From an uncultured Prevotellaceae bacterium (GTDB lineage Bacteria > Bacteroidota > Bacteroidia > Bacteroidales > Bacteroidaceae), in NCBI GenBank assembly GCA_900321965.1, contig ONYA01000011.1, forward strand, positions 31,367-95,366: a DNA stretch of 64,000 nucleotides. The letters run 5' to 3'. Shown here in pieces: positions 2,326 through 58,944 of this stretch. Both the position numbers and the translations under genes were made by a program. Below the pieces are notes generated by a model. It was given only the letters and a program-made list of their open reading frames with translations. It had not been told where the DNA came from and searched no databases. How positions within the stretch are numbered: position 1 is the stretch's first letter; every line of letters begins with the position of its first letter.

Positions 2326-2994
2326 ATGGCAAAGTTTGATAAGATAGCTGTTCTAAAGAAGATTGGCGATACGGGTATGGTGCCCGTTTTCTACCACAAG
2401 GATCTTGAGACTTGTAAGAATGTGGTGAAGGCTTGCTACGAAGGTGGCGTTCGTGCCTTTGAGTTTACTAATCGTGGTGACTTCGCTCATGAGATTTTTG
2501 GCGAGTTGGTGAAGTGGGCCGATAAGGAGTGCCCTGAGCTGGCTCTGGGTATTGGTAGCGTGGTTGACGCTCCTACGGCTGCCCTCTACCTGCAGTTAGG
2601 TGCAAACTTCGTGGTTGGCCCGCTGTTCAATCCCGAAATTGCTCCCGTCTGCAACCGCCGTCTCGTGCCTTACTGCCCTGGCTGCATGACCGTCAGCGAG
2701 ATTGGCAAGGCCCAGGAGTTGGGTTGCGACCTGACGAAGGTGTTCCCTGGCGACGTTGTTGGTCCTAACATGGTGAAGGGCCTGAAGGCTCCTATGCCTT
2801 GGTCGAAGATCATGGTCACGGGTGGTGTAGCTCCTGAGGAGGAGAACCTGACGAAATGGTTCAAGGCTGGCGTCTTCTGCGTTGGCATGGGCTCGAAGCT
2901 CTTCCCCTCTGACAAGGTGAAGGCCGGCGACTGGCAGTATGTGACCGATAAGTGCAAGGAGGCACTCGGTTATGTGGCTAAGGCGCGCGCTTAA
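2326..2994 (+). CDS. eda: KDPG/KHG aldolase
   Basis: Class I aldolase that splits 2-keto-3-deoxy-6-phosphogluconate into pyruvate and glyceraldehyde 3-phosphate. The conserved Glu of the RAFEFTNRG segment, the Schiff-base Lys region LTKVFPGD, and the phosphate-binding MVTGGV and GMGSKLF loops are visible. About 222 residues, normal for the family. ATG at 2326 is preferred over a TTG 9 nt upstream that lies within the heptamer repeat. It follows kdgK by 23 nt, and its 3' end overlaps the next ORF by 23 nt, so the sensor kinase is probably co-transcribed with it. Confidence 0.88.
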
Positions 2995-5900
2995 GCTGCT
3001 GCTCGTCACAATTATTATTTCAGCTTGTTCACCCTCTGATAGGCAGCAGGTGGACAAGCTGAATTCTCTTTCGTACGCCTATCATTACCGTTGTCTTGAC
3101 TCCATCCGCTATGTTGAGGACGATGCCGAGGGACTGAACAACAAGGTTTTCCGGCATATCGCCAAGATGGAGTACGACAGCGCGGAATACTGTCTGAACC
3201 ATATTCCTGAAATTACTGACAACCAGATAGAGTTGCTGGTTTGCTACGTCCAGCAGATGCGACTCTGCCAGCGCCGTTCGCGCAACAAAGACTTCTACGA
3301 CTATCGCGAACGGGCAATGACCTGCTTGAAGCGCATCAACGAGGAACGGTCGCAGCTCGACGAGCGCCAGCAGCGCCGTCTGCTCTACGCTGAGACGGAA
3401 CTGGCCATCGTTACTTCCACCTATTATTATTATATAGGACTGGAACAGCAGTCTGTCGACGCCCTGATGGCTATCAATCCTGATGAGGTGAAGAAGGACA
3501 CGGCACAGTTCCTGAACTATCTCTATAACGTCGGAGCTGGCGGCATTCTGACCAAAGGCACGGCTACGGAGATATTCCAGCAGGAGATGGACTACCTGCT
3601 GCGCTGTTTCCAGATAGCCCAGCGCGACAACTATCCTTACTTCATGGCCAACGCCCTACAGGCGATAGCTGAGCACCTGACGTCGCCACAGGCCGAAGAC
3701 GAACTCCTTGACCGCGGACTGGCGATGGTGAACCCTGAGAGTCTGACAGACCGCTACGAGTTGGCCGTCTGGCTGGCTGAAGAGTCGCTGGCGCTGTTCG
3801 AGACGTTTGGCGATGTCTACCAGATAGCGGGTGCCTATCGAACGCTGGCCTCCTGTCATTGGGCAATGGGCAATGACGAAGCTACGCTCCACCACTTGGA
3901 ACAGGCACTTGCCGATACGGTTATTTTCCAGGCGCCTGACCTCGTGGCGAGTATCTACGAGCGACTCAGCGTAGCCTACGCAGCCATCGACGACAAAGCG
4001 AGCAGCGACTATTATCGTAACCTCTATCTCGATCTGCACGAACAGACACGTCAGGACCGTCAGTTGGAGGCGCGAGCCGGACAGTTGGACCGTTCTGTGA
4101 CGCAGTTAGACTGGATTCTGATGGCAACCGTTGCCGCTATCCTGCTGCTGATATTCCTGCTGTGGCTCTTCCGCTGGCTCAACCGTCGCCGTCCGACGGA
4201 GAATCCCCTGGCTGACGAACTCGAGGAACGTCGCGAACAGCTGACCGTCAGCCGCAGTCATATCAAAGAGGCTGAGCGTCGACATGCGGAGCAGCGAGCC
4301 AAAATCTCATTGGTCAACAGTCTGTTGCCGCTCATCGACCGCATGGTCTACACCATCAACCGCCAGGACGACAAGGAGTATGTGCGCGAGCTGACGGAGA
4401 AGATAGAGGCCGACAACGAACTGCTGACACAATGGATACAGTTGCGACAGGGACAGTTGACCCTGCATATCGAGAGCTTCGCCCTGCAACCGCTGTTCGA
4501 CATGATGGCCCGCAGTCAGAAGAGTTTCCAGATGAAAGGCATCACGCTACACGTCGAACCCACACAGGCTGTTGTCAAGGCCGACCGCATTCTGACGCTC
4601 TTCATGCTGAACACGCTTGCCGACAACGCCCGCAAGTTCACCAGCGAAGGACAGGTATCCATCAGCGCCGCAGAGACCAACGACTACGTCGAGGTGTCTG
4701 TCATCGATACGGGCTGCGGTATGGACGAGAATCAGCTCGCCCACGTCTTCGACCACCAACTGACGACCCACGGCTTCGGACTACTGAACTGTAAGGGTAT
4801 CATCGAGAAGTATCGCAAGATGAGTCAGCTGTTCCGCGTCTGCACCCTTCAGGCTGAGAGCCAGCAGGGTAGGGGAAGCCGCTTCTTCTTCCGGCTGCCG
4901 CTTGGCAGGATGATGGGCCTTATAGGACACATAGGTCTTATAAGACTTATAGGTCTTATAGGTCTCATAGGACCCATAGGTCCCATTAGTCTCATTAGTC
5001 TTATTTGTCTTATCTCCCCCCTAAGCCTTCAGGCTCAGCCGCTGAACAAGGCAGCCGTCTATTCCGACTCGGCTTACTTCTCTAACATCAACGGCAACTT
5101 CGAGCGGACACTGCTCTTTGCCGACTCCTGCTGCCGCTGCCTGAACGAACACTACCTGAAGCAGCATCCCCGTGGGAAAGCCTTGCTGAGGATTGCCGAC
5201 GATGATGCTGTGACACCGCCAGAGATACAATGGCTGCACGACTCCGTACAGACAAACTACAACATGATTCTCGACATCCGCAACGAGGCGGCTGTAGCGG
5301 CATTGGCACTCCACCAGTGGGCACTCTATCAGTATAACAACCGCGCCTACAACCAACTCTACAAGGAGCTGTCGGCCGATGCCACGCTGGCCGACTACTG
5401 CCGCACGATGCAGCAGACCAAGGAGAACCGCACCATTGCCGTCGTACTCTTGCTGATGGCCCTGTTAGCCGTACTGCCCGTCTGGTATTTCTACTACCTG
5501 CGACCGCGATTCAACGCCCGCTTCAAGGCCGAGCGCACCAGTCGCGACGACCTCATGCTCTTAGACGACGAACAGCGGCGCGCCGACCTCGAACTGGCCA
5601 ACCTCCACGTGTCGAACGCCGTGCTCGACAACTGCCTGTCGACCCTCAAGCACGAGACGATGTACTACCCCTCGCGCATCCGTCAGCTCATTGAGCAGAA
5701 CGATATGGAGGCCGCACGCGAGGTGGTCGACTACTATCGCGAACTCTATAACATGCTGAGCCTGCAGGCGATGGATCAGGTGGAGCGCGTCAAGCTGCAC
5801 CTGCACCCATGCACCCTCTACGGTCAGACCGTTCTTGGCGACGAGAATCTGCTCGGCTATCTCTTCGAACTCCTCAAGTCGCCAGACGTCAAAGCCAAGA

Positions 5901-10094: not shown

Positions 10095-12611
10095 ATGAAT
10101 ATTTCCTATAAATGGCTGAAAGACTACGTTGACTTCGACTTGACGCCGCAGCAGGTCTGCGATGCGCTGACGTCAACAGGTCTGGAGGTCGACGCACTCG
10201 AAGAGGTGCAGAGCATTCGTGGTGGACTGAAGGGACTCTATGTTGGCAAGGTGCTGACGTGCGAAGCCCATCCCAATAGCGACCACCTGCATGTGACGAC
10301 TGTTGATCTGGGCAAGGGCGAACCGAGCCAGATTGTGTGCGGCGCCCCCAACGTGGCAGCTGGTCAGAAAGTGATTGTGGCCGACTTGGGCTGTGTGCTC
10401 TACGACGGCGACAACGAGTTTGTTATCAAGAAGTCGAAACTGCGCGGCGTGGAGTCGTGCGGCATGATTTGTGCTGAGGACGAGATTGGTGTTGGTACGT
10501 CGCACGACGGTATCATCGTATTGCCTGACGACGCTGTGGTAGGTATGCCTGCCGCCGAGTATTATCACTTGGAGAGCGACTGGCTCATAGAGGTGGACAT
10601 CACCGCCAACCGTGCCGACGCATTGAGCCACTGGGGTGTTGCCCGCGATCTCTACGCCTGGCTTCGCCAAAACGGCTACGAGTCCTCCCTCCACCGCCCC
10701 GCGGTCGATGGTTTCGCCATCGACAACCACGACCTCCCCATCGACGTGGTCATCGAGAATACCGAGGCTTGTCGCCGTTACGCCTGCGTCAGCATCACCG
10801 GCTGCGAGGTGAAGGAGTCGCCCGAGTGGCTGAAGACCCGCCTGACGACCGTCGGCCTGCGTCCTATCAACAACATTGTTGACATTACGAACTACATCAT
10901 GTTCGCCTACGGTCAGCCGCTGCATTGTTTCGATGCCGATATGGTGACGGGTCATAAGATTGTGGTAAAGACGATGCCCGAGGGTACGCCGTTCGTCACC
11001 CTTGATGGTGAGGAACATAAGCTCTCAGACCGCGACCTGGCCATCTGCAATGCTGAGGAAGCTATGTGCATAGCCGGCGTGTTTGGCGGTAAGGGTAGCG
11101 GTACCTACGAGACGACGAAGAACGTCGTTTTGGAGTCGGCCTACTTCCATCCTACATGGATTCGTAAGTCTGCCCGCCGTCACGGACTCTCGACTGACGC
11201 CTCGTTCCGCTTTGAGCGTGGCATCGATCCCAATGGCGTCATCTACGCCCTGAAGCAGGCTGCCATCATGTGCCGTGAACTGGCTGGCGGTAAGGTGTCG
11301 ATGGAGATTCGCGACGAGTATCCGTCACCCATAGAGAATGCTAAGGTAGAACTTAACTTCAATTATGTCAAGACGCTGATAGGTAAGGATATACCTCATC
11401 AGACGATTAAGGATATCTGCACCTCTTTGGAGATGAAGATACTCAGCGAGACGCCCGAGGCCATGACCGTCGATGTGCCTGCCTACCGTGTGGACGTCCA
11501 GCGTCCTTGCGACGTCGTAGAGGACATTCTGCGCATATACGGATATAATAATGTGGAGATTCCTACACAGCTGAAGGGCTCGCTCGTCATCAAGGGCGAC
11601 GAAGACCGCAAGCACAAGCTGGCTAACTTGGTGAGCGAGCAGCTGGTAGGCGAGGGCTTCAACGAAATTCTGAACAACTCGTTGACGAAGGCTGCGTACT
11701 ATGCAGCCCCTCTGTCGTCCCCCGAGGGGGACACAAATGTCCAGCAAACAAATGAAGCCCCCTCGGGGGCTGTAGGGGGGGCTTTCCTTGTCAGAATCAT
11801 GAACCCGCTCTCAAGCGACCTGAACGTCATGCGTCAGACCCTGCTCTACGGCGGTCTGGAGAGTGTTGCCCATAACGCCAACCGTAAGAATCAGAACCTG
11901 CGTTTCTTCGAGTTCGGCAACGTCTACTACTTCGATTCTGAGAAGCAAAACGAAGACGACCCGATGCAGGCCTACAAGGAGCAGAATCACCTGGCTCTTT
12001 GGCTGACAGGTAAGCGCGTCGAGGGTTCGTGGGCACATCAGAATGAGGATTCTACGTTCTATGAGTTAAGCGCCTACGTCGAGAATGTGCTGCGTCGTAT
12101 CGGTCTGAAATTAGGTATGGCTGTTCGCAAGAAGTCAGAGAATCCAATCTTCTCGGCTGGTCTTGTCATTGAGAATCGTGGTGGCAAGAAGCTTGTTGAG
12201 ATGGGTGTGCTGACGAAGAAACTGCAGAAGCAGTTCGGCATCGACAATCCTGTCTACTATGCCGAGATGAACTGGACGCAGCTGATGAAGGCCACGAAGA
12301 AGAACGAGGTGAAGTTCACCGAGGTGCCGAAGTTCCCTGCCGTCAGCCGCGACTTGGCCCTGTTGGTCGACAACAGCGTGGAGTTTGCACAGATTGAGCA
12401 GATTGCCCGTCAGTCGGAGAGGAAACTGCTGAAGAAGGTGGAACTGTTCGACGTCTACGAGGGCGACAAGCTGCCTGCCGGCAAGAAGTCGTACGCCGTC
12501 AACTTCATCCTGCAGGATGAGGAGAAGACGATGGGCGACAAGCAGATCGACGCTATCATGCAGAAACTCATCACCAACCTGAAGAAGCAGCTCAATGCTG
12601 AGTTGCGCTAA
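10095..12611 (+). CDS. pheT: Phenylalanyl-tRNA synthetase beta subunit
   Basis: Beta chain of the alpha2-beta2 PheRS that charges tRNA-Phe. Order: N-terminal OB-fold tRNA-binding domain (~40-155), B3/B4 editing domain (GLRPINNIVDITNYIMFAYG at ~255-275), B5 domain, the catalytic-like module (IMNPLSSDLNVMRQTLL), and the C-terminal ferredoxin-like anticodon-binding domain (FPAVSRDLALLVD). About 26 residues at ~536-562 (from PLSSPEGD to GGAF) are a repeat-derived insertion just before IMNPLSSDL, with the frame kept. pheS is not adjacent. It is followed by yebC. Confidence 0.95.
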   Translation: MNISYKWLKDYVDFDLTPQQVCDALTSTGLEVDALEEVQSIRGGLKGLYVGKVLTCEAHPNSDHLHVTTVDLGKGEPSQIVCGAPNVAAGQKVIVADLGCVLYDGDNEFVIKKSKLRGVESCGMICAEDEIGVGTSHDGIIVLPDDAVVGMPAAEYYHLESDWLIEVDITANRADALSHWGVARDLYAWLRQNGYESSLHRPAVDGFAIDNHDLPIDVVIENTEACRRYACVSITGCEVKESPEWLKTRLTTVGLRPINNIVDITNYIMFAYGQPLHCFDADMVTGHKIVVKTMPEGTPFVTLDGEEHKLSDRDLAICNAEEAMCIAGVFGGKGSGTYETTKNVVLESAYFHPTWIRKSARRHGLSTDASFRFERGIDPNGVIYALKQAAIMCRELAGGKVSMEIRDEYPSPIENAKVELNFNYVKTLIGKDIPHQTIKDICTSLEMKILSETPEAMTVDVPAYRVDVQRPCDVVEDILRIYGYNNVEIPTQLKGSLVIKGDEDRKHKLANLVSEQLVGEGFNEILNNSLTKAAYYAAPLSSPEGDTNVQQTNEAPSGAVGGAFLVRIMNPLSSDLNVMRQTLLYGGLESVAHNANRKNQNLRFFEFGNVYYFDSEKQNEDDPMQAYKEQNHLALWLTGKRVEGSWAHQNEDSTFYELSAYVENVLRRIGLKLGMAVRKKSENPIFSAGLVIENRGGKKLVEMGVLTKKLQKQFGIDNPVYYAEMNWTQLMKATKKNEVKFTEVPKFPAVSRDLALLVDNSVEFAQIEQIARQSERKLLKKVELFDVYEGDKLPAGKKSYAVNFILQDEEKTMGDKQIDAIMQKLITNLKKQLNAELR
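11703..11783. repeat. In-frame inverted hairpin element within pheT
   Basis: Two GC-rich arms, each itself a palindrome (CCCCCGAGGGGG type), face each other around an A-rich spacer. The arms are imperfect inverted copies. They encode the low-complexity insertion between the AAYYA and VRIMNPL segments of PheT. Confidence 0.8.
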
Positions 12612-30819: not shown

Positions 30820-31571
30820 ATATAACGATTTTTCAAACAGACACCGTTTGGGGACAACCCGATGAAAACGTGAAAAACGTGCAGCGGCTGTTGTCCGAAA
30901 ATACGGGTTCCGACCTCTATGTCCTGCCCGAAATGTGGGCTACGGGATTCGCTACAGAGCCGCATGAACTGGCAGAAAACGACGATTCCATCGCTCTCCG
31001 ATGGATGCAGCAGACGGCTGTAGCTCACCGATGTGCGCTCAGCGGCAGCCTCTTGATACACGCTGCCGATGGTACCTACCGCAATCGTCATTATTTTGTC
31101 ACGCCCGAAGCCACCGTTTTCTACGATAAACACCATCTGTTCACCTATGGTCACGAGGATGTGTATATCACGCCGGGCACGGCGCACGTTGTTGCCACTT
31201 GGCAGGGGCGCCGTTTCCTACTGCTGACGTGCTACGACCTACGTTTCCCCCTGTGGTCGCGCTATGGGCGTGCTGGTGAGTACGATGCCATCATCGTGTC
31301 GGCCAACTGGCCGGAAAGCCGTCAGCAGGCGTGGCGGGTGCTGACGCGGGCACGTGCCATCGAGAACCAGTGTTACTTGATTGGTGCCAACCGTGTGGGC
31401 GACGACCAGTTCTGTCATTACCGGGGCGAGAGCCTCGTCTGCGACTCCAAGGGCGATACGTTGGCAGAGGCGGTTCCCAACCGTCAGCAAGCGCTGACGA
31501 CAACCCTCGACTTCGAAAAATTAGACGTCGTCAGAACTCGCTTTAAAGTCTTAGAAGACAGAGATTTTTAG
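30816..31571 (+). CDS. Nitrilase-family amidohydrolase (omega-amidase-like)
   Basis: 251 residues of the carbon-nitrogen hydrolase fold. The triad is visible: Glu in VLPEMWATGF, Lys in VFYDKHHLF, Cys in LLTCYDLRFP. The combination of length and the YDKHHLFTYG segment resembles omega-amidase/Nit2-like enzymes that hydrolyse alpha-ketoglutaramate, but substrate is inferred only from resemblance. The start at 30816 gives an ATGA overlap with trmN6. A single base separates its stop from the stop of the convergent ligase gene. Confidence 0.85.
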   Translation: MNITIFQTDTVWGQPDENVKNVQRLLSENTGSDLYVLPEMWATGFATEPHELAENDDSIALRWMQQTAVAHRCALSGSLLIHAADGTYRNRHYFVTPEATVFYDKHHLFTYGHEDVYITPGTAHVVATWQGRRFLLLTCYDLRFPLWSRYGRAGEYDAIIVSANWPESRQQAWRVLTRARAIENQCYLIGANRVGDDQFCHYRGESLVCDSKGDTLAEAVPNRQQALTTTLDFEKLDVVRTRFKVLEDRDF

Positions 31572-36537: not shown

Positions 36538-36600
36538 AAAATTCTCGCGCCCATTCGTAAAATTCTCGCGCCCATTCGTAAAATTTTCGCGTTCATTCGT
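36538..36600 (+). repeat. 21-nt tandem repeat x3
   Basis: Units at 36538-36558, 36559-36579 (identical) and 36580-36600 (three substitutions), of the form AAAATTCTCGCGCCCATTCG plus T. Non-coding. Confidence 0.95.
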
Positions 36601-36617
36601 GATATTGGCAAATAGAT

Positions 36618-36788
36618 GTCTTACAGTTCTTACAGTTGACAGTTTTCACAGGCGCGCTTTACGAATCGGCAAAATTGTATAAGAATATTATACTATATAT
36701 ATAATATATATATTATATATATAGTATTACTTATTTCAAGGTTTTGAGGTGCTCCTGTGAAAACTGTCAACTGTAAGAACTGTAAGAC
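36618..36788. repeat. Inverted-repeat element with AT-rich palindromic core
   Basis: Perfect 35-bp inverted arms (36618-36652 and 36754-36788). Each arm contains phased direct repeats of ACAGTT about 9 nt apart. The 101-nt interior contains a 38-nt perfect AT palindrome (36690-36727, arms of 18 around AT). No transposase or coding capacity. Confidence 0.9.
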
Positions 36789-36899: not shown

Positions 36900-36938
36900 C
36901 ACGTCTTTAAAGAAATTTCATAAAACGGATATAGAAAT

Positions 36939-39900
36939 ATGAGTAAGAGATTTGCCGAGCATAACGGCTTGAACCTGACGCAGACGAACAACGATGTGCT
37001 GCAGATGTGGAAGGAGAAGAACATCTTCTGGCGCTCCATCAACGAGCGCGAAGGTTGTCCGCAGTTTGTATTCTTTGAGGGACCTCCCTCAGCCAACGGC
37101 CACCCCGGCATCCACCACGTGTTAGCACGTACGATCAAGGATACCTTCAACCGCTATAAGACCATGCAGGGCATGCAGGTGAAGCGTAAGGCCGGTTGGG
37201 ACACCCACGGACTGCCCGTAGAGTTGGGCGTGGAAAAAGAGTTGGGCATCACCAAGGCTGATATCGACAATAAGGAGTCGGCAAAGTACATCTCTACGGA
37301 GGACTACAACCACAAGTGCCGCGAGAACGTCATGAAGTTCACCGCCGAGTGGCGTGACCTCACGGAGCGCATCGGCTACTTCGTAGACCTCGACAACCCC
37401 TACATCACTTACGACAACAAGTACATCGAGACACTGTGGTGGCTCCTGAAGCAGCTCTATGGGAAGGACCTGCTCTACAAAGGCTACACCATACAGCCGT
37501 ATTCACCCGCCGCAGGTACGGGACTGTCGAGCCACGAGCTGAACCAGCCTGGCTGCTACCGCGACGTGAAGGATACGACGTGTACGGCGCTGTTTAAGGT
37601 TAAGGGCCGTCAGACAACCCCTCCTTTGGAGGGGCTTGGGGAGGCTTGGGGTCCCCTTTACTTCATGGCGTGGACGACAACGCCTTGGACGTTGGCTGCC
37701 AACTCGGCACTCTGCGTGGGTCCGAAGATTGACTACGTAGCCGTAGAGACCTATAACCCCTATAGTGCTGAGAAGATTACCGTCATTCTGGCCGAAGCCC
37801 GTCTGGGCGCCTATCTGCCCGCAGCAGGCGAGATTACGGACGGCGGCGAGATGCCTGAATACAAGAAGGGTGACAAGCTGCTGCCTTACCGCATCGTAGG
37901 CCGCTACAAGGGTACTGATCTCGTCGGCATGGAGTACGAGCAGCTGATGCCCGCCATCAAGCCCATGGGCGACGCCTTCCGCGTCATCCCTGGCGACTAC
38001 GTGACGACGGAAGACGGTGCCGGTATCGTGCATATCGCCCCGAACTTCGGTGCCGACGACGCCTTCGTGGCCAAGAAAGCCGGCATCTGTCCCATCGTGC
38101 TCATCGACAAGAAAGGCAACGAGCGCCCCGTGGTGGACTTGCAGGGTAAGTACTTCGTCGTCGACGACCTCGACCCCGAGTTCGTCAAGAACTACATGAA
38201 CGTTGAGGAGTGGAACAAGTTTGCAGGCCGCTACGTGAAGAACGCCTACGACGACACGCTGACCGACAAGGACGAGACGCTGGACATCAGCATCTGCATG
38301 GACTTGAAGGCGCAGGACAAGGTCTTCAAGATTGAGAAGCATACCCACAACTACCCCCACTGCTGGCGTACGGACAAGCCCGTGCTCTACTATCCGCTCG
38401 ACTCGTGGTTCATCCGCTCGACGGCTAAGAAGGAGCGTATGTTCGAGTTGAACAAGACCATCAACTGGCAGCCTGAGTCAACGGGTACCGGCCGCTTCGG
38501 CAACTGGCTCGAGAACCTGAACGACTGGAACCTCTCACGCAGCCGCTTCTGGGGCACGCCGCTGCCCATCTGGCGCGACGAGGACGGCAAGGCCGAGAAG
38601 TGCATCGGTTCGGTCGAGGAACTGTACGATGAAATCGAGAAATCTGTGGCTGCCGGTATCATGGCCGAGAACCCGCTGAAGGCAAAGGGCTTCGTGCCTG
38701 GCGACATGTCGAAGGAGAACTACGACCGCATTGACCTGCACCGCCCCTATGTGGACAACATCGTGCTCGTCAGCGACGAGGGCAAGCCCATGAAGCGCGA
38801 GACCGACCTCATCGACGTGTGGTTCGACTCCGGTTCGATGCCTTACGCTCAGGTACACTATCCGTTTGAAAACCGCGATTTAATCGACAAGCGCGAGGCC
38901 TTCCCCGCCGACTTCATCAATGAGGGTGTCGACCAGACGCGCGGTTGGTTCTTCACGCTGCACGCTATTGCCACCATGATCTTCGACTCCGTAGCCTTCA
39001 AGAACGTCATCTCCACCGGTCTGGTGCTCGACGCCAAGGGCAACAAGATGTCGAAGCACGTGGGCAACGTGGTGAACCCCTTCGAGATGATTGAGAAGTA
39101 CGGCACTGACGCCGTCCGCTTCTATATGCTGACCAACTCAGAGCCGTGGGACAACCTGAAGTTCGACCCCGAGGGCGTCGACGAGGTGCGCCGCAAGTTC
39201 TTCGGCACCTTATATAATACGTATAGCTTCTTTGCGCTCTATGCTAATGTGGATGAATGGAGACCCACCCCCCAGCCCCTCCCTGTGAGGGAGGGGAGTA
39301 ATTACCCAGAAGGTGGGCAGTCTGCAGAAGAATTATCTACTCCCCTCCCTCACAGGGAGGGGCAAGGGGGTGGGTCTTCTCCCGAGATTGACCGCTGGAT
39401 TCTCTCGTGCCTCAACACCCTCATCAAGGGCGTGCAGAAGGAGCTCGACAACTTCGACCCGACCCGTGCAGGCCGTCTCATCGATGCGTTCGTCAACGAC
39501 GACCTCTCCAACTGGTATGTCCGCCTGAACCGCAAACGCTTCTGGGGTAAGGACATGAGCGACGACAAGCGCTCGGCTTACGACACGCTCTACACCTGTC
39601 TGCTGACCGTCGCGAAGCTGATGGCACCGTTCGCCCCGTTCTATGCCGACCAGCTCTACAAGGATCTCGGCGGCGAGAAGGACAGCGTACATCTCGACTC
39701 CTTCCCCGCTGTCGATGAATCCCTCATCGACAAGGACCTTGAGGCCCGTATGGAGATGGCTCAGAAGATTACCTCGATGGTGCTCGCCCTGCGCCGCAAG
39801 GTGAATATCAAGGTGCGCCAGCCGCTTCAGGCTATTATGGTGCCCGCTACCGAGGAACAGAAAAAGCACATCGAGGCCGTCAAGCAGCTTATCATGAACG

Positions 39901-40463
39901 AGGTGAATGTCAAGGAACTGAAATTCGTTGAAGGTCAGGGCATTCTTGTCAAGAAGGTAAAGTGTAACTTCAGGACGATGGGTAAGAAGTTCGGCAAGCT
40001 GATGAAGGGTGTTGCCGCTGTTATAGACGCCCTGTCGCAGGAGCAGATTGCTGAGTTGGAGCAGAACGGCACCATCGGCATCAATGTTGAGGGACAAGAC
40101 CTGACGGTCGAAACTGCCGACGTCGAGATTATCAGCGAGGACATCCCCGGCTGGCTCGTTGCCAACGAAGGCTCGTTGACCGTAGCCCTCGAAGTGGAAC
40201 TCAACGACGAGCTGCGTCAGGAGGGTATGGCCCGCGAGATCATCAACCGCGTGCAGAACATCCGTAAGGAGAGCGGACTGGAGATTACCGACCGCATCAG
40301 CATCACGCTGGCTCCCAATGCCGAGGTGGAGAAGTCGGTAGCGGCCTTCGGCGACTATATCAAAACGCAAGTTCTGGCCGATTCCATCGAGATAGCCCCG
40401 AACGACGGCACCGAGGTGGAGTTCGACGATTTCAAACTGAATATTACAATAACCAAAAACTAA
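36939..40463 (+). CDS. ileS: Isoleucyl-tRNA synthetase
   Basis: 1174 residues, class I aaRS. HIGH motif in FFEGPPSANGHPGIHHVLAR, editing domain with AWTTTPWTLAANSALCVG, the KMSKH loop (LDAKGNKMSKHVGN), then anticodon-binding helices and a C-terminal region without the E. coli-type zinc finger. Two repeat-derived insertions keep the frame: a short one at ~residues 227-238 (TTPPLEGLGEAWG) just before the editing-domain AWTTTPW, and a 38-residue one at ~775-813 between YANVDEW and PEIDRWILSCL, at the junction with the anticodon domain. First gene of a run through rsmE. Confidence 0.95.
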   Translation: MSKRFAEHNGLNLTQTNNDVLQMWKEKNIFWRSINEREGCPQFVFFEGPPSANGHPGIHHVLARTIKDTFNRYKTMQGMQVKRKAGWDTHGLPVELGVEKELGITKADIDNKESAKYISTEDYNHKCRENVMKFTAEWRDLTERIGYFVDLDNPYITYDNKYIETLWWLLKQLYGKDLLYKGYTIQPYSPAAGTGLSSHELNQPGCYRDVKDTTCTALFKVKGRQTTPPLEGLGEAWGPLYFMAWTTTPWTLAANSALCVGPKIDYVAVETYNPYSAEKITVILAEARLGAYLPAAGEITDGGEMPEYKKGDKLLPYRIVGRYKGTDLVGMEYEQLMPAIKPMGDAFRVIPGDYVTTEDGAGIVHIAPNFGADDAFVAKKAGICPIVLIDKKGNERPVVDLQGKYFVVDDLDPEFVKNYMNVEEWNKFAGRYVKNAYDDTLTDKDETLDISICMDLKAQDKVFKIEKHTHNYPHCWRTDKPVLYYPLDSWFIRSTAKKERMFELNKTINWQPESTGTGRFGNWLENLNDWNLSRSRFWGTPLPIWRDEDGKAEKCIGSVEELYDEIEKSVAAGIMAENPLKAKGFVPGDMSKENYDRIDLHRPYVDNIVLVSDEGKPMKRETDLIDVWFDSGSMPYAQVHYPFENRDLIDKREAFPADFINEGVDQTRGWFFTLHAIATMIFDSVAFKNVISTGLVLDAKGNKMSKHVGNVVNPFEMIEKYGTDAVRFYMLTNSEPWDNLKFDPEGVDEVRRKFFGTLYNTYSFFALYANVDEWRPTPQPLPVREGSNYPEGGQSAEELSTPLPHREGQGGGSSPEIDRWILSCLNTLIKGVQKELDNFDPTRAGRLIDAFVNDDLSNWYVRLNRKRFWGKDMSDDKRSAYDTLYTCLLTVAKLMAPFAPFYADQLYKDLGGEKDSVHLDSFPAVDESLIDKDLEARMEMAQKITSMVLALRRKVNIKVRQPLQAIMVPATEEQKKHIEAVKQLIMNEVNVKELKFVEGQGILVKKVKCNFRTMGKKFGKLMKGVAAVIDALSQEQIAELEQNGTIGINVEGQDLTVETADVEIISEDIPGWLVANEGSLTVALEVELNDELRQEGMAREIINRVQNIRKESGLEITDRISITLAPNAEVEKSVAAFGDYIKTQVLADSIEIAPNDGTEVEFDDFKLNITITKN
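37614..37655 (+). repeat. Single hairpin module inserted in ileS (site 1)
   Basis: CCCCTCC-TTT-GGAGGGG (37618-37634) followed by CTTGGGGAGGCTTGGGG. This is the hairpin-plus-G-rich-tail module also seen in ileS site 2, hisH and pheT, here as one copy. Confidence 0.75.
39262..39376. repeat. Inverted pair of hairpin modules inserted in ileS (site 2)
   Basis: Two 39-nt arms (39262-39300 and 39338-39376) are inverted copies with 37 of 39 matches, around a 37-nt spacer. Each arm contains the inner palindrome CCCCTCCCTGTGAGGGAGGG plus one base. Open in the ileS frame, encoding Pro/Gly-rich sequence. Confidence 0.92.
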
Positions 40464-40470
40464 TCATACA

Positions 40471-40854
40471 ATGGAAACAGAAAAAACACGTTATTCTGAC
40501 CAGGAACTCGAGGAGTTCCGCGAGATTATCAACGAGAAGCTGGCTCTTGCCAAGCGCGACTATGACCAGATGATGGCCGTCATTACCAATCAGGACTCCA
40601 ACGACGTGGACGACACGTCGCCTACGTACAAGGCATTGGAGGAAGGTTCGGCAACCCAGTCGAAGGAGGAAATCATCACGATGGCTGCACGTCAGCAGAA
40701 GTTTATCCAGGGGCTGAAGGCTGCGCTGGTGCGTATTGAGAATAAGACTTACGGTATTGACCGTCTGACGGGCAAGCTCATACCGAAGGAGCGTCTGAAG
40801 GCCGTTCCTCACGCTACGCTCAGCGTTGAGTCGAAAATGAATCAGAAGAAGTGA
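40471..40854 (+). CDS. DksA/TraR-like protein without zinc-finger cysteines
   Basis: 127 residues with the DksA-type layout: an N-terminal coiled coil (QELEEFREIINEKLALAKRDYDQ cut into two helices) and the C-terminal YGIDRLTGKLIPKERLKAVPHATLS. Family members carry Cys pairs around this last segment; here none remain (IDRLTG where Cys is usual). It may still bind RNA polymerase's secondary channel. 7 nt after ileS and coupled to lspA by a GTGA overlap; this ileS-dksA-lspA order is common in Bacteroidetes. Confidence 0.85.
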   Translation: METEKTRYSDQELEEFREIINEKLALAKRDYDQMMAVITNQDSNDVDDTSPTYKALEEGSATQSKEEIITMAARQQKFIQGLKAALVRIENKTYGIDRLTGKLIPKERLKAVPHATLSVESKMNQKK

Positions 40855-57562: not shown

Positions 57563-58294
57563 TTAGACAGGAGTACAAGAGTACATTTTTATTAACGCAT
57601 TTAGGTCGATGCGACCTTCGTAGATTGCTTTTCCAAAGACGACGGCGGGAATGCCGGCCTTGTCGAGGGCCTTGATGTCATCAATACTCGACACGCCTCC
57701 GCTGGCTATGAGGTGCAGGTCGGGGTATGCCTCCATCACCTGCTGATACAGTCCGATGGCGGGTCCTGCTAACGTACCGTCCTTGGATATTTCCGTACAG
57801 AGAACAGTCTTGACGCCAGCCTCGATGTATTTCTTCAGGAAGGGCAGCAGGTCTTCCGTCGAGTCTTCCTTCCAGCCGTTGATGCTGATTTTGCCGTTAC
57901 GCACGTCGGCGCCTAATATCATGCGGTCGGCTCCGTACTTCTCGAGCCATCCCAAGAACAGGTCGGGTTGTGTGACGGCGATGCTGCCGACGGTCACCAT
58001 CGAGGCCCCCGCCTCAAAGGCTTTCTCTATGTCCTCGTCGGTCTTGATGCCGCCGCCGAAGTCGACCGTCAGGCGGGTTTCGGTCGTCACGCGACTGAGC
58101 ACTTGGCTGTTGACGATATGCTTCGACTTGGCGCCGTCGAGGTCTACCATGTGCAGACGCTTGTAGCCGATGCGCTCAAACTCCAAGGCCATCTCCAACG
58201 GATGACCGTAGACGGTCTTCTGGTCGTAGTTGCCTTTTGTCAGGCGCACACATTGTCCGTCGATAATGTCTATGGCGGGTATCAGTTCTATCAT
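57563..58294 (-). CDS. hisA: ProFAR isomerase HisA
   Basis: 243 residues, TIM barrel. [17 protein letters not shown] carries one catalytic Asp and [11 protein letters not shown] the other; [10 protein letters not shown] and IASGGVSS are phosphate-binding loops. Isomerises the ProFAR intermediate of histidine synthesis. ATGA overlap with hisH. Confidence 0.95.
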
Positions 58295-58944
58295 AATGCC
58301 AGGAAGTTTTTGATGATTTGCTCACCTACGCGTCCGCTCTTCTCGGGGTGGAACTGGCAGGTGTAGAAGTTGTCCTTGTGCATGGCGGCAGAGTAGGGCA
58401 GGATATAGTGGGCCGTGGCGATGGTCTCGTTGCATACGGGGACGTAGTACGAGTGGACGAAGTAGACGTAGCAGCCTACCCCCAGCCCCTCCCAGAGGGA
58501 GGGGTGACTGGTATCTAACAATCCTTTGAACAGAGCATTCTCAACTCCCTTCCCTTCGGGAGGGGTTGGGGGTAGGCTAAGTTTATTCCAACCCATGCAC
58601 GGCACCTTGTCCTCATGGCGCTGGGGCTGGAAGCGTCTGACGTCGGCGTCGAAGATGCCGATGCAGTCGACGTCGCCTTCCTCCGAGTGGCGGCAGAGCA
58701 GCTGCTGACCGATGCAGATGCCTAATACGGGCTGCTTCAACGAGCGGATGACCTCGTCGAGCCGTCGCGCCTTCAGATACTCCATAGCCCCGCTGGCCTC
58801 ACCTTGTCCGGGAAAGAGCACGCGGTCGGCTTTCATCAGCTGCTCGGCATCGTCGGTCAGCATGGGCTCAATACCCAGTCGCTTCAGGGCGTTGACCACC
58901 GAGTAGATGTTTCCTGCGTTATATTTTACGATTGCAACGTTCAT
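58291..58944 (-). CDS. hisH: Imidazole glycerol-phosphate synthase glutaminase subunit HisH
   Basis: 217 residues. Class I amidotransferase: nucleophile Cys in LGICIGQQLL, His-Glu pair in CQFHPEKSG. After CMGWNKLS a block of repeat-derived sequence (PPTPPEGKG) precedes NALFKGLLD, which is the native segment NxLFxGI of the family, and a second block (HPSLWEGLGVG) follows before YVYFVHSYY. Family members have one short link here, so the protein carries two flanking insertions of ~10-13 residues each, with the frame intact and the triad preserved. First gene of hisHAF(IE). Confidence 0.94.
   Translation of the reverse strand: MNVAIVKYNAGNIYSVVNALKRLGIEPMLTDDAEQLMKADRVLFPGQGEASGAMEYLKARRLDEVIRSLKQPVLGICIGQQLLCRHSEEGDVDCIGIFDADVRRFQPQRHEDKVPCMGWNKLSLPPTPPEGKGVENALFKGLLDTSHPSLWEGLGVGCYVYFVHSYYVPVCNETIATAHYILPYSAAMHKDNFYTCQFHPEKSGRVGEQIIKNFLAL
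58473..58578. repeat. Inverted pair of hairpin modules flanking a native hisH segment
   Basis: Arm 58473-58507 (AGCCTACCCCCAGCCCCTCC...) is an imperfect inverted copy of arm 58541-58578, each with an inner CCCTCCC/GGGAGGG-type hairpin. The 33-nt segment between them encodes residues conserved in HisH. Confidence 0.85.

Follow-up and report, generated by a model that had tools for sequence, protein, structure and literature searches.

How do paired hairpins, rich in C on one side and in G on the other, come to lie within the reading frame of an isoleucyl-tRNA synthetase, and what moves them? The question is raised by the gene ileS in a window of 64,000 nucleotides (the whole stretch of DNA analysed here, positions 31,367 to 95,366 of contig ONYA01000011.1) from an uncultured Prevotellaceae bacterium, a gut-type Bacteroidota whose assembly amounts to 2.92 Mb and is 79% complete. 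The original prediction, made from the letters of the window, had been that a single hairpin module recurs in frame in ileS, hisH and pheT as a mobile element. In part this stands, in that the hairpin repeats are a dispersed palindromic family, inserted in frame in essential genes at domain borders or loops, although they form at least four subtypes instead of one module. What had been overlooked is a gene of the family DUF559 (PF04480), which the modules bracket. It is probable that the modules are the ends of DUF559 elements and that the DUF559 protein is their mover.

The inverted pair in ileS, predicted with 39-nt arms, consists of two 40-nt arms of the subtype here called type A, 95% complementary and 37 nt apart. 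It stands between the tRNA-synt_1 (20-742) and Anticodon_1 (818-965) domains with the IleS frame running through it, its tails pointing outward (AGACCCACCCCC... on the left, ...GGGGGTGGGTCT on the right). As single-stranded DNA the pair reaches -52.5 kcal/mol against a shuffle mean of -22.1 (z -10.5, with 0 of 200 shuffles as good), and Rfam gave no match within 36900-40500. The block is absent in all 27 readable relatives (29 related loci were taken, from which L073 and L086 were dropped as not matching the pattern), including the closest, G082, whose IleS is 96% identical over residues 1-777 and 93% over the rest. The linker is hypervariable among relatives, such that the exact borders of the insertion cannot be placed. 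At the era site, 100 of 119 other genomes have the C-terminal half of Era as a separate piece, 10 align unbroken and 9 are without a clear era match; among three of the unbroken alignments that were read, one (G087) has a single module in the same linker and two (G023, G082) have unrelated extensions, the Era linker being hypervariable as well. The absence of the ileS block from every readable relative, taken together with the split era site, makes it very probable from these sequence comparisons that the repeats are mobile, as had been proposed.

Further copies of the module are present in the source genome. A 141-base query gave 78 matches (strands and halves counted separately), and a search for the strict hairpin CCTCCC-N(0-12)-GGGAGG found 96 occurrences, its reversed control 3. 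In stretches fetched around the listed query matches and strict-pattern hits, a choice that takes in not every copy, 78 family-like hairpins fall into at least 50 clusters. Long open reading frames (ORFs) hold 23 of the 50, and 21 of these clusters lie in frame in ORFs with a Pfam family, which bears out the predicted placement at domain borders and loops of housekeeping genes. The hosts are ileS (two clusters), hisH, era, uvrA, SufB/D, purL, mfd, murF-alr, feoAB, pnuC, an OEP protein separate from the junction named below, a GT2 protein, a Mur ligase, an ATP-grasp acyl-CoA ligase, a THUMP-like protein, GH106, AXE1 and YfhO; an AcrB-type pump has two clusters, one inside it and one at its junction with an OEP domain. 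The other 27 clusters lie between separate ORFs or beside one, often a few bases from a stop codon, and were judged by ORF reading, not homology, to break no frame. Some genes end or begin inside modules (the C-termini of ffh and purL, the N-terminus of folD). Survival in frame would be easy, since no stop interrupts three of the six reading frames of the type A module (46 nt), which encodes peptides rich in Pro and Gly (PTPQPLPVREG, SPPSQGGAGG, TPLPHREGxGGG).

The evidence for a mover comes from the surroundings of DUF559. On contig C38 of the source genome, a module pair between ffh and folD brackets a DUF559 ORF, and DUF559 matches occur in 121 of 200 genomes of the genus. Bracketing was taken as an inverted-repeat score of at least 20 between flanks within 400-450 nt of the DUF559 match. 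Inverted flanking repeats are found on this measure at 24 of 30 genus loci (the best matches, one per genome; direct orientation 3/30), at 52 of 77 loci from named Bacteroidota (the best 80 of 520 confirmed loci, less three with short flanks; direct orientation 4/77), and, on plasmids of cyanobacteria, Deinococcus and alphaproteobacteria, at 7 of 16 loci selected by hand from 38 matches. None of 40 ileS control loci has such repeats, though as controls these are weak wherever the gene is matched only in part. The flanks of one locus match each other better than mismatched flanks do (p 2e-11 for the genus, 6e-33 for Bacteroidota and 1e-4 for the plasmids). Altogether 92 of 128 testable loci reach the threshold, and 85 of these 92 have repeats with a perfect stem of at least 6; in 81 of them 26 different stem arms were counted. 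The tails, located by pattern, point away from DUF559 on both sides at 17 of the genus's 30 loci; at two (L170, L195), and apparently at two plasmid loci as well, they face inward. In the relative G172, whose IleS is 92% identical, the hairpin of the ileS pair itself stands letter for letter on both sides of a DUF559 gene (L329, score 31.5).

Both the number and the sequence of the repeats follow DUF559. Across the 200 genomes the number of hairpins correlates with the number of DUF559 genes (Spearman 0.71; partial 0.69 given genome size and Y1 number; 0.76 once the DUF559 number of ten genomes with nothing but weak matches is put at zero), the median rising from 3 hairpins in genomes with no DUF559 to 18 with one, 33 with two and 96 with three or more. 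DUF559 is present in 26 of the 26 genomes that are at least 90% complete and have at least 50 hairpins. With stop-containing or identical proteins dropped (5 of 92), the similarity of a locus's repeat to that of its nearest DUF559 relative has a median of 0.76, and is 0.72, 0.56 and 0.40 after relatives above 0.9, 0.8 and 0.7 are barred; it is 0.24 where a genome's different DUF559s are compared with one another (14 pairs) and 0.30 over all pairs. A Mantel test of co-divergence gave rho 0.34 (p 0.001), on sets of loci that may share genomes (e.g. L248 and the LeuS contig of G059). These comparisons indicate that the repeat type goes with the clade of the DUF559 and not with the genome that hosts it.

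The DUF559 protein is 120-150 residues long and is predicted to be a nuclease with an I-Bth0305I (EDxHD homing endonuclease)/Vsr-like fold. Profile search places it with 3hrl (E 8e-31) and with 3r3p, annotated as a mobile intron protein (E 9e-7), and an AlphaFold model (predicted local distance difference test score 87) best matches 3hrl and the homing endonuclease I-Bth0305I, AbaSI/PvuRts1I and Vsr being weaker; the template modelling score against 3r3p is 0.75-0.76 normalised by 3r3p and 0.65 by the model. A strict pattern for the core residues E, FxRQ, DF and ExDGxxH fits 117 of 131 copies, and one of its misses (L175) is a coordinate fault.

The DUF559 gene is itself found in frame inside host genes. 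A Pfam scan places it in LeuS (G059), an ABC-F ATPase (G044), a sugar epimerase (G070), a DegT aminotransferase (G132), MazG (G165), an unnamed protein (G131) and a DNA helicase just past its Walker A motif (G053), and fused ahead of gmk in the source genome. Reading of translations alone, from which the host names are taken, adds an epimerase (G150, at the same place as in G070), a GAF-like protein (G215) and, in other genomes, positions ahead of gmk, argB, ispF and a SpoU-type methylase. In the LeuS of G059, the 603-nt DUF559 block and a second module pair of 141 nt are both absent from G083, whose LeuS, where the pieces align, is 94-96% identical in residues, and which shares 86% of nucleotides. 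No ATG, GTG or TTG lies 75 to 20 codons before the FRRQ motif in the LeuS, helicase and MazG copies (3 of 6 embedded copies), so that these copies of the nuclease are probably translated solely within the host protein. A Pfam scan of eight embedded or fused copies gave no intein family, the frame running through, introns not having been searched for.

Dispersal, presence and absence at single sites, cognate bracketing, the copy-number correlation, repeat-gene co-divergence and in-frame insertion of the nuclease gene are shown, and all are accommodated if the modules are the ends of DUF559 elements. The full element would be a C-rich tail and hairpin, the DUF559 gene, and a hairpin and G-rich tail, with single modules and inverted pairs as its gene-less derivatives. 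The DUF559 protein would recognise its own hairpin type and cut or nick DNA, and a module copy would be set in at the cut through repair or strand annealing; insertions would be tolerated in intergenic DNA or, where the frame is kept, in loops and at domain borders. We infer from sequence the nuclease activity, the role as mover and the copying step.

Several points weigh against this account. Neither movement nor cleavage has been observed, and no target duplication was seen by eye. The correlation of hairpin and DUF559 numbers ignores ancestry, and most of the genomes are metagenome assemblies; five genomes with at least 30 hairpins have no DUF559 match (G043, G116, G136 and G163, all at most 81% complete, and G192, 93% complete), and of 68 genomes with at most five hairpins 15 have a match, 8 of them a strong one. 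Near relatives account for part of the co-divergence. Below the repeat threshold are 25 of the 77 Bacteroidota and 9 of the 16 plasmid loci, and the DUF559 loci of N. gonorrhoeae and E. coli score 16.0 and 12.5. At L329, the inverted copy of the ileS-pair hairpin lies some 150 nt beyond DUF559, in the start of macB, and a third, degenerate copy stands in direct orientation at the end of the DUF559 gene; a DUF559 with type A repeats is not in the source assembly, itself 79% complete, where the macA-macB interval holds neither DUF559 nor hairpin. DUF559 could be a passenger, and this is the strongest rival, unlikely as we judge it: a host process, such as hairpin-primed template switching or gene conversion, would spread C-rich palindromes between which DUF559 merely rides, or on which it acts as a nuclease. 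No gene is needed for single modules or for pairs that enclose host DNA, there are DUF559 genes without repeats and module-rich genomes without DUF559, and the activity of the protein is only predicted; yet the repeat type tracks the DUF559 clade rather than the host genome, the repeat number tracks the DUF559 number, and the association recurs in cyanobacteria, Deinococcus and alphaproteobacteria.

The modules also have the look of repetitive extragenic palindromic (REP) sequences, short palindromes in inverted pairs (REP doublets, REPINs), which in Pseudomonas and E. coli belong to a REP-associated tyrosine transposase (RAYT) of the Y1/HUH type. Y1_Tnp matches occur in 111 of the 200 genomes, with one strong match in the source genome, and hairpin and Y1 numbers correlate weakly (rho 0.21; 0.31 in the 89 more complete genomes), but given genome size and DUF559 the partial rho falls to 0.04 (p 0.59) in the 200 genomes and 0.20 (p 0.06) in the 89. 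Flanking inverted repeats at 11 of 24 Y1 loci have other sequences (e.g. GCCCTGAAAGGGC), none of them the module; just 3 of 30 Y1 loci contain a module-like hairpin at any position, and that of the source genome is not among them; and the pair spacers are unrelated. A RAYT origin is accordingly improbable. About as poor a prospect, if not slightly poorer, is that the repeats are kept for a function in RNA or DNA (as terminators, mRNA ends or in supercoiling) and are not parasites: the hairpins are stable and, for the 27 clusters that no long ORF contains, a stop codon is often only a few bases away, but 21 of the 50 are inside ORFs with a Pfam family, and occupancy of the ileS site is lineage-specific. 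Lastly, the blocks might be ordinary variable linkers or old protein extensions, alike in DNA through codon and Pro/Gly bias, as the variable linkers of IleS, Era and HisH would allow; this is scarcely credible, given that the same module DNA recurs in intergenic stretches and, read in several frames, in genes of unrelated kinds, and that the LeuS block and module pair are missing from so close a relative.

Should the modules be the ends of DUF559 elements, the known systems close to them include the RAYT-REP/REPIN systems, reportedly treated by Bertels in 2011. Both have dispersed short palindromes, inverted pairs and an enzyme gene bracketed by cognate palindromes. The DUF559 elements differ in having a Vsr/EDxHD-fold nuclease and not an HUH tyrosine transposase, in apparently lacking a constant 5' GTAG tag (by eye, GTAG follows the hairpin in some copies, AGTAGATA, while others read AGTAATTA, AGTATATA and AGTTTGGTTAG), in having repeats other than those at the Y1 genes of the genus, and in the presence of the enzyme gene itself in frame inside host genes. 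A spacer derived from the element, as in REPINs, was not seen among 26 inverted pairs (spacers of 30-212 nt), whose mutual similarity is at the shuffled level (median score 7.0 vs 7.0). Miniature inverted-repeat transposable elements (MITEs) are gene-less pairs of inverted terminal repeats derived from a gene-bearing DDE transposon, and the gene-less module pairs resemble them; DUF559 is not a DDE transposase, however, the spacers are unrelated and in some pairs host-like, and no target duplication is visible by eye at the ileS, hisH, LeuS and macA-macB sites.

In-frame palindromes as such are already known. Di Nocera 2013 (PMC3733652) describes Rickettsia palindromic elements (RPEs) and GTAG and CGTC repeats of this kind, with intragenic REP copies in some species, uvrA among the targets, and variable spacers in some REP dimers. 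RPE-4 and RPE-6, which are CGTC REPs, likewise lie in frame in probably functional proteins according to that paper, which gives them a CGTC tag and reports no dedicated transposase for CGTC repeats, whereas a candidate enzyme gene is found here. The predicted parallel with RPEs holds for the in-frame insertion and is otherwise an analogy only, because the module has no CGTC-tagged stem that begins with AT pairs. DUF559 was also considered as mover of the CGTC repeats of Neisseria (dRS3) and Rickettsia, and set aside since no CGTC-AT element was found by pattern near 18 DUF559 loci. With EDxHD homing endonucleases such as I-Bth0305I (PMC3943268) DUF559 shares the nuclease fold and core residues; it differs in its flanking palindromes, in having no intron or intein that was seen (introns not having been searched for), and in the want of a start codon 75 to 20 codons before the FRRQ motif in 3 of 6 embedded copies.

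The different enzyme fold, the different ends and the translation of the nuclease within host proteins incline us to regard DUF559 elements as an undescribed class of mobile DNA, in which a gene of homing-endonuclease fold with cognate palindromic ends would spread both itself and its bare ends, adapted to translation and without splicing, the C-rich hairpin relatives in cyanobacteria, Deinococcus and proteobacteria included. In the open-access literature, as judged for DUF559 by titles and the openings of abstracts, no paper tying DUF559 to repeats and no in-frame palindromic elements in Prevotella were found, and for in-frame palindromic insertions in Bacteroidetes it gave only PMC3733652. 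If this is correct, IleS, Era and UvrA contain bare ends, and in LeuS, MazG and ABC-F host and nuclease are one polypeptide, a nuclease living within essential proteins. DUF559, a domain of unknown role in many bacteria, would gain a candidate function, and the large group of palindromic repeats that RAYTs leave unexplained a candidate enzyme, with a guide for repeats that have no known transposase, such as the CGTC class of PMC3733652. A 46-nt hairpin and a small protein in purified form would allow mobility to be tested.

Table 1. Genes and hairpin modules in the window
Feature	Position	Strand	Description
pheT	10095..12611	+	838 aa
pheT inverted pair	11705..11783	.	AGCCCCCCCTACAGCCCCCGAGGGGGCT subtype, found beside DUF559 gene of relative G172 (L323)
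ileS	36939..40463	+	Intact 1174-aa isoleucyl-tRNA synthetase with two separate in-frame insertions
Single ileS module	37619..37643	+	CCCCTCCTTTGGAGGGGCTTGGGGAG(GCT); resembles repeats around the DUF559-gmk gene of the source genome (contig C79)
Left type A module	39261..39300	-	Tail AGACCCACCCCCC, hairpin CCCCTCCCTGTGAGGGAGGGG, inner end AGTA; G-rich tail outward
Spacer of ileS pair	39301..39337	+	Unlike the spacers of the 25 other pairs examined
Right type A module	39338..39377	+	TACT, hairpin (CCCCTCCCTGTGAGGGAGGGG), tail GGGGGTGGGTCT
hisH	58294..58944	-	GATase, 217 aa
hisH module pair	58474..58578	.	Hairpins 58487-58503 and 58545-58564; brackets a short native-loop-like segment

The other copies predicted in the window (Table 1) are real, and two of them are of other subtypes. 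The single copy in ileS is present and is not type A. The pair in pheT, whose arms (11705-11730 and 11758-11783) are 77% complementary, has a right arm identical over 28 letters to a repeat beside a stop-containing DUF559 gene in G172, and is therefore of another subtype again. The flanking pair in hisH was found as described, within the GATase domain. Among 79 other genomes HisH aligns in two pieces in 36 and unbroken in 24, the remainder aligning poorly or not, and G082 shows the native loop; of five unbroken alignments that were read, four have other linkers and one, G070 (L347), has SLPQPLLKEGR...SPLSMEGSG where the window's HisH has its pair, seemingly a decayed or parallel insertion, so that the hisH insertion is not unique to the window. 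The native loop or linker seems to be partly replaced at the ileS and hisH sites; no target duplication is visible by eye there or at the LeuS and macA-macB sites, the ileS and hisH borders being blurred by linker change. The spacer of the UvrA pair aligns with native UvrA of known structure and that of the HisH pair resembles a native loop, whereas that of the Alr pair is not native. By this comparison at least some pairs are modules set on either side of host sequence, and a module pair does not constitute a fixed element. IleS also varies in length near residues 350 and 650, through ordinary indels and not through modules.

In the source genome (L099, contig C35), an AcrB-type pump and an OEP protein form one ORF of 1543 residues, joined through a module pair that brackets an apparent signal peptide of the second protein, such that two genes may have become one. 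The sole strong IS200/RAYT-like gene of this genome (L132:2133-2612, contig C45) adjoins tandem copies of a different repeat, with the translation RYPRYPRYPQVLRTLRLLRGDRVAVRCR, from which a second repeat system coexists with the modules; two weak Y1-like ORFs (L133, L134) proved to be longer proteins without the module. In-frame tandem repeats occur in proteins at L133:465-1901 and L134:1094-2383 and 2387-4423, with the units GENAAKMHE in a Y1-like protein and AAPAAG in a glycosidase-like protein, another sign that translated repeats are tolerated. Some plasmid DUF559 genes (L304, L299, L309, L297, L298) lie between neighbouring pathway genes, namely sufB and sufC in Sphingomonas, paaD and paaZ, also beside hpa genes, in Deinococcus, and genes for carboxylase subunits in Sphingobium. 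The E. coli DUF559 locus (L358) has copies of a C-rich palindrome (CCCTCACCCCAACCCTCTCCCTGAAAGGGCGAGGGGG and a variant) on its downstream side only, possibly a decayed relative. Just upstream of ileS in the window lies a 38-nt inverted repeat (97%; 36618-36655 and 36751-36788) with an AT-rich palindrome between its arms, and near it a 21-nt tandem repeat at 36538-36600.

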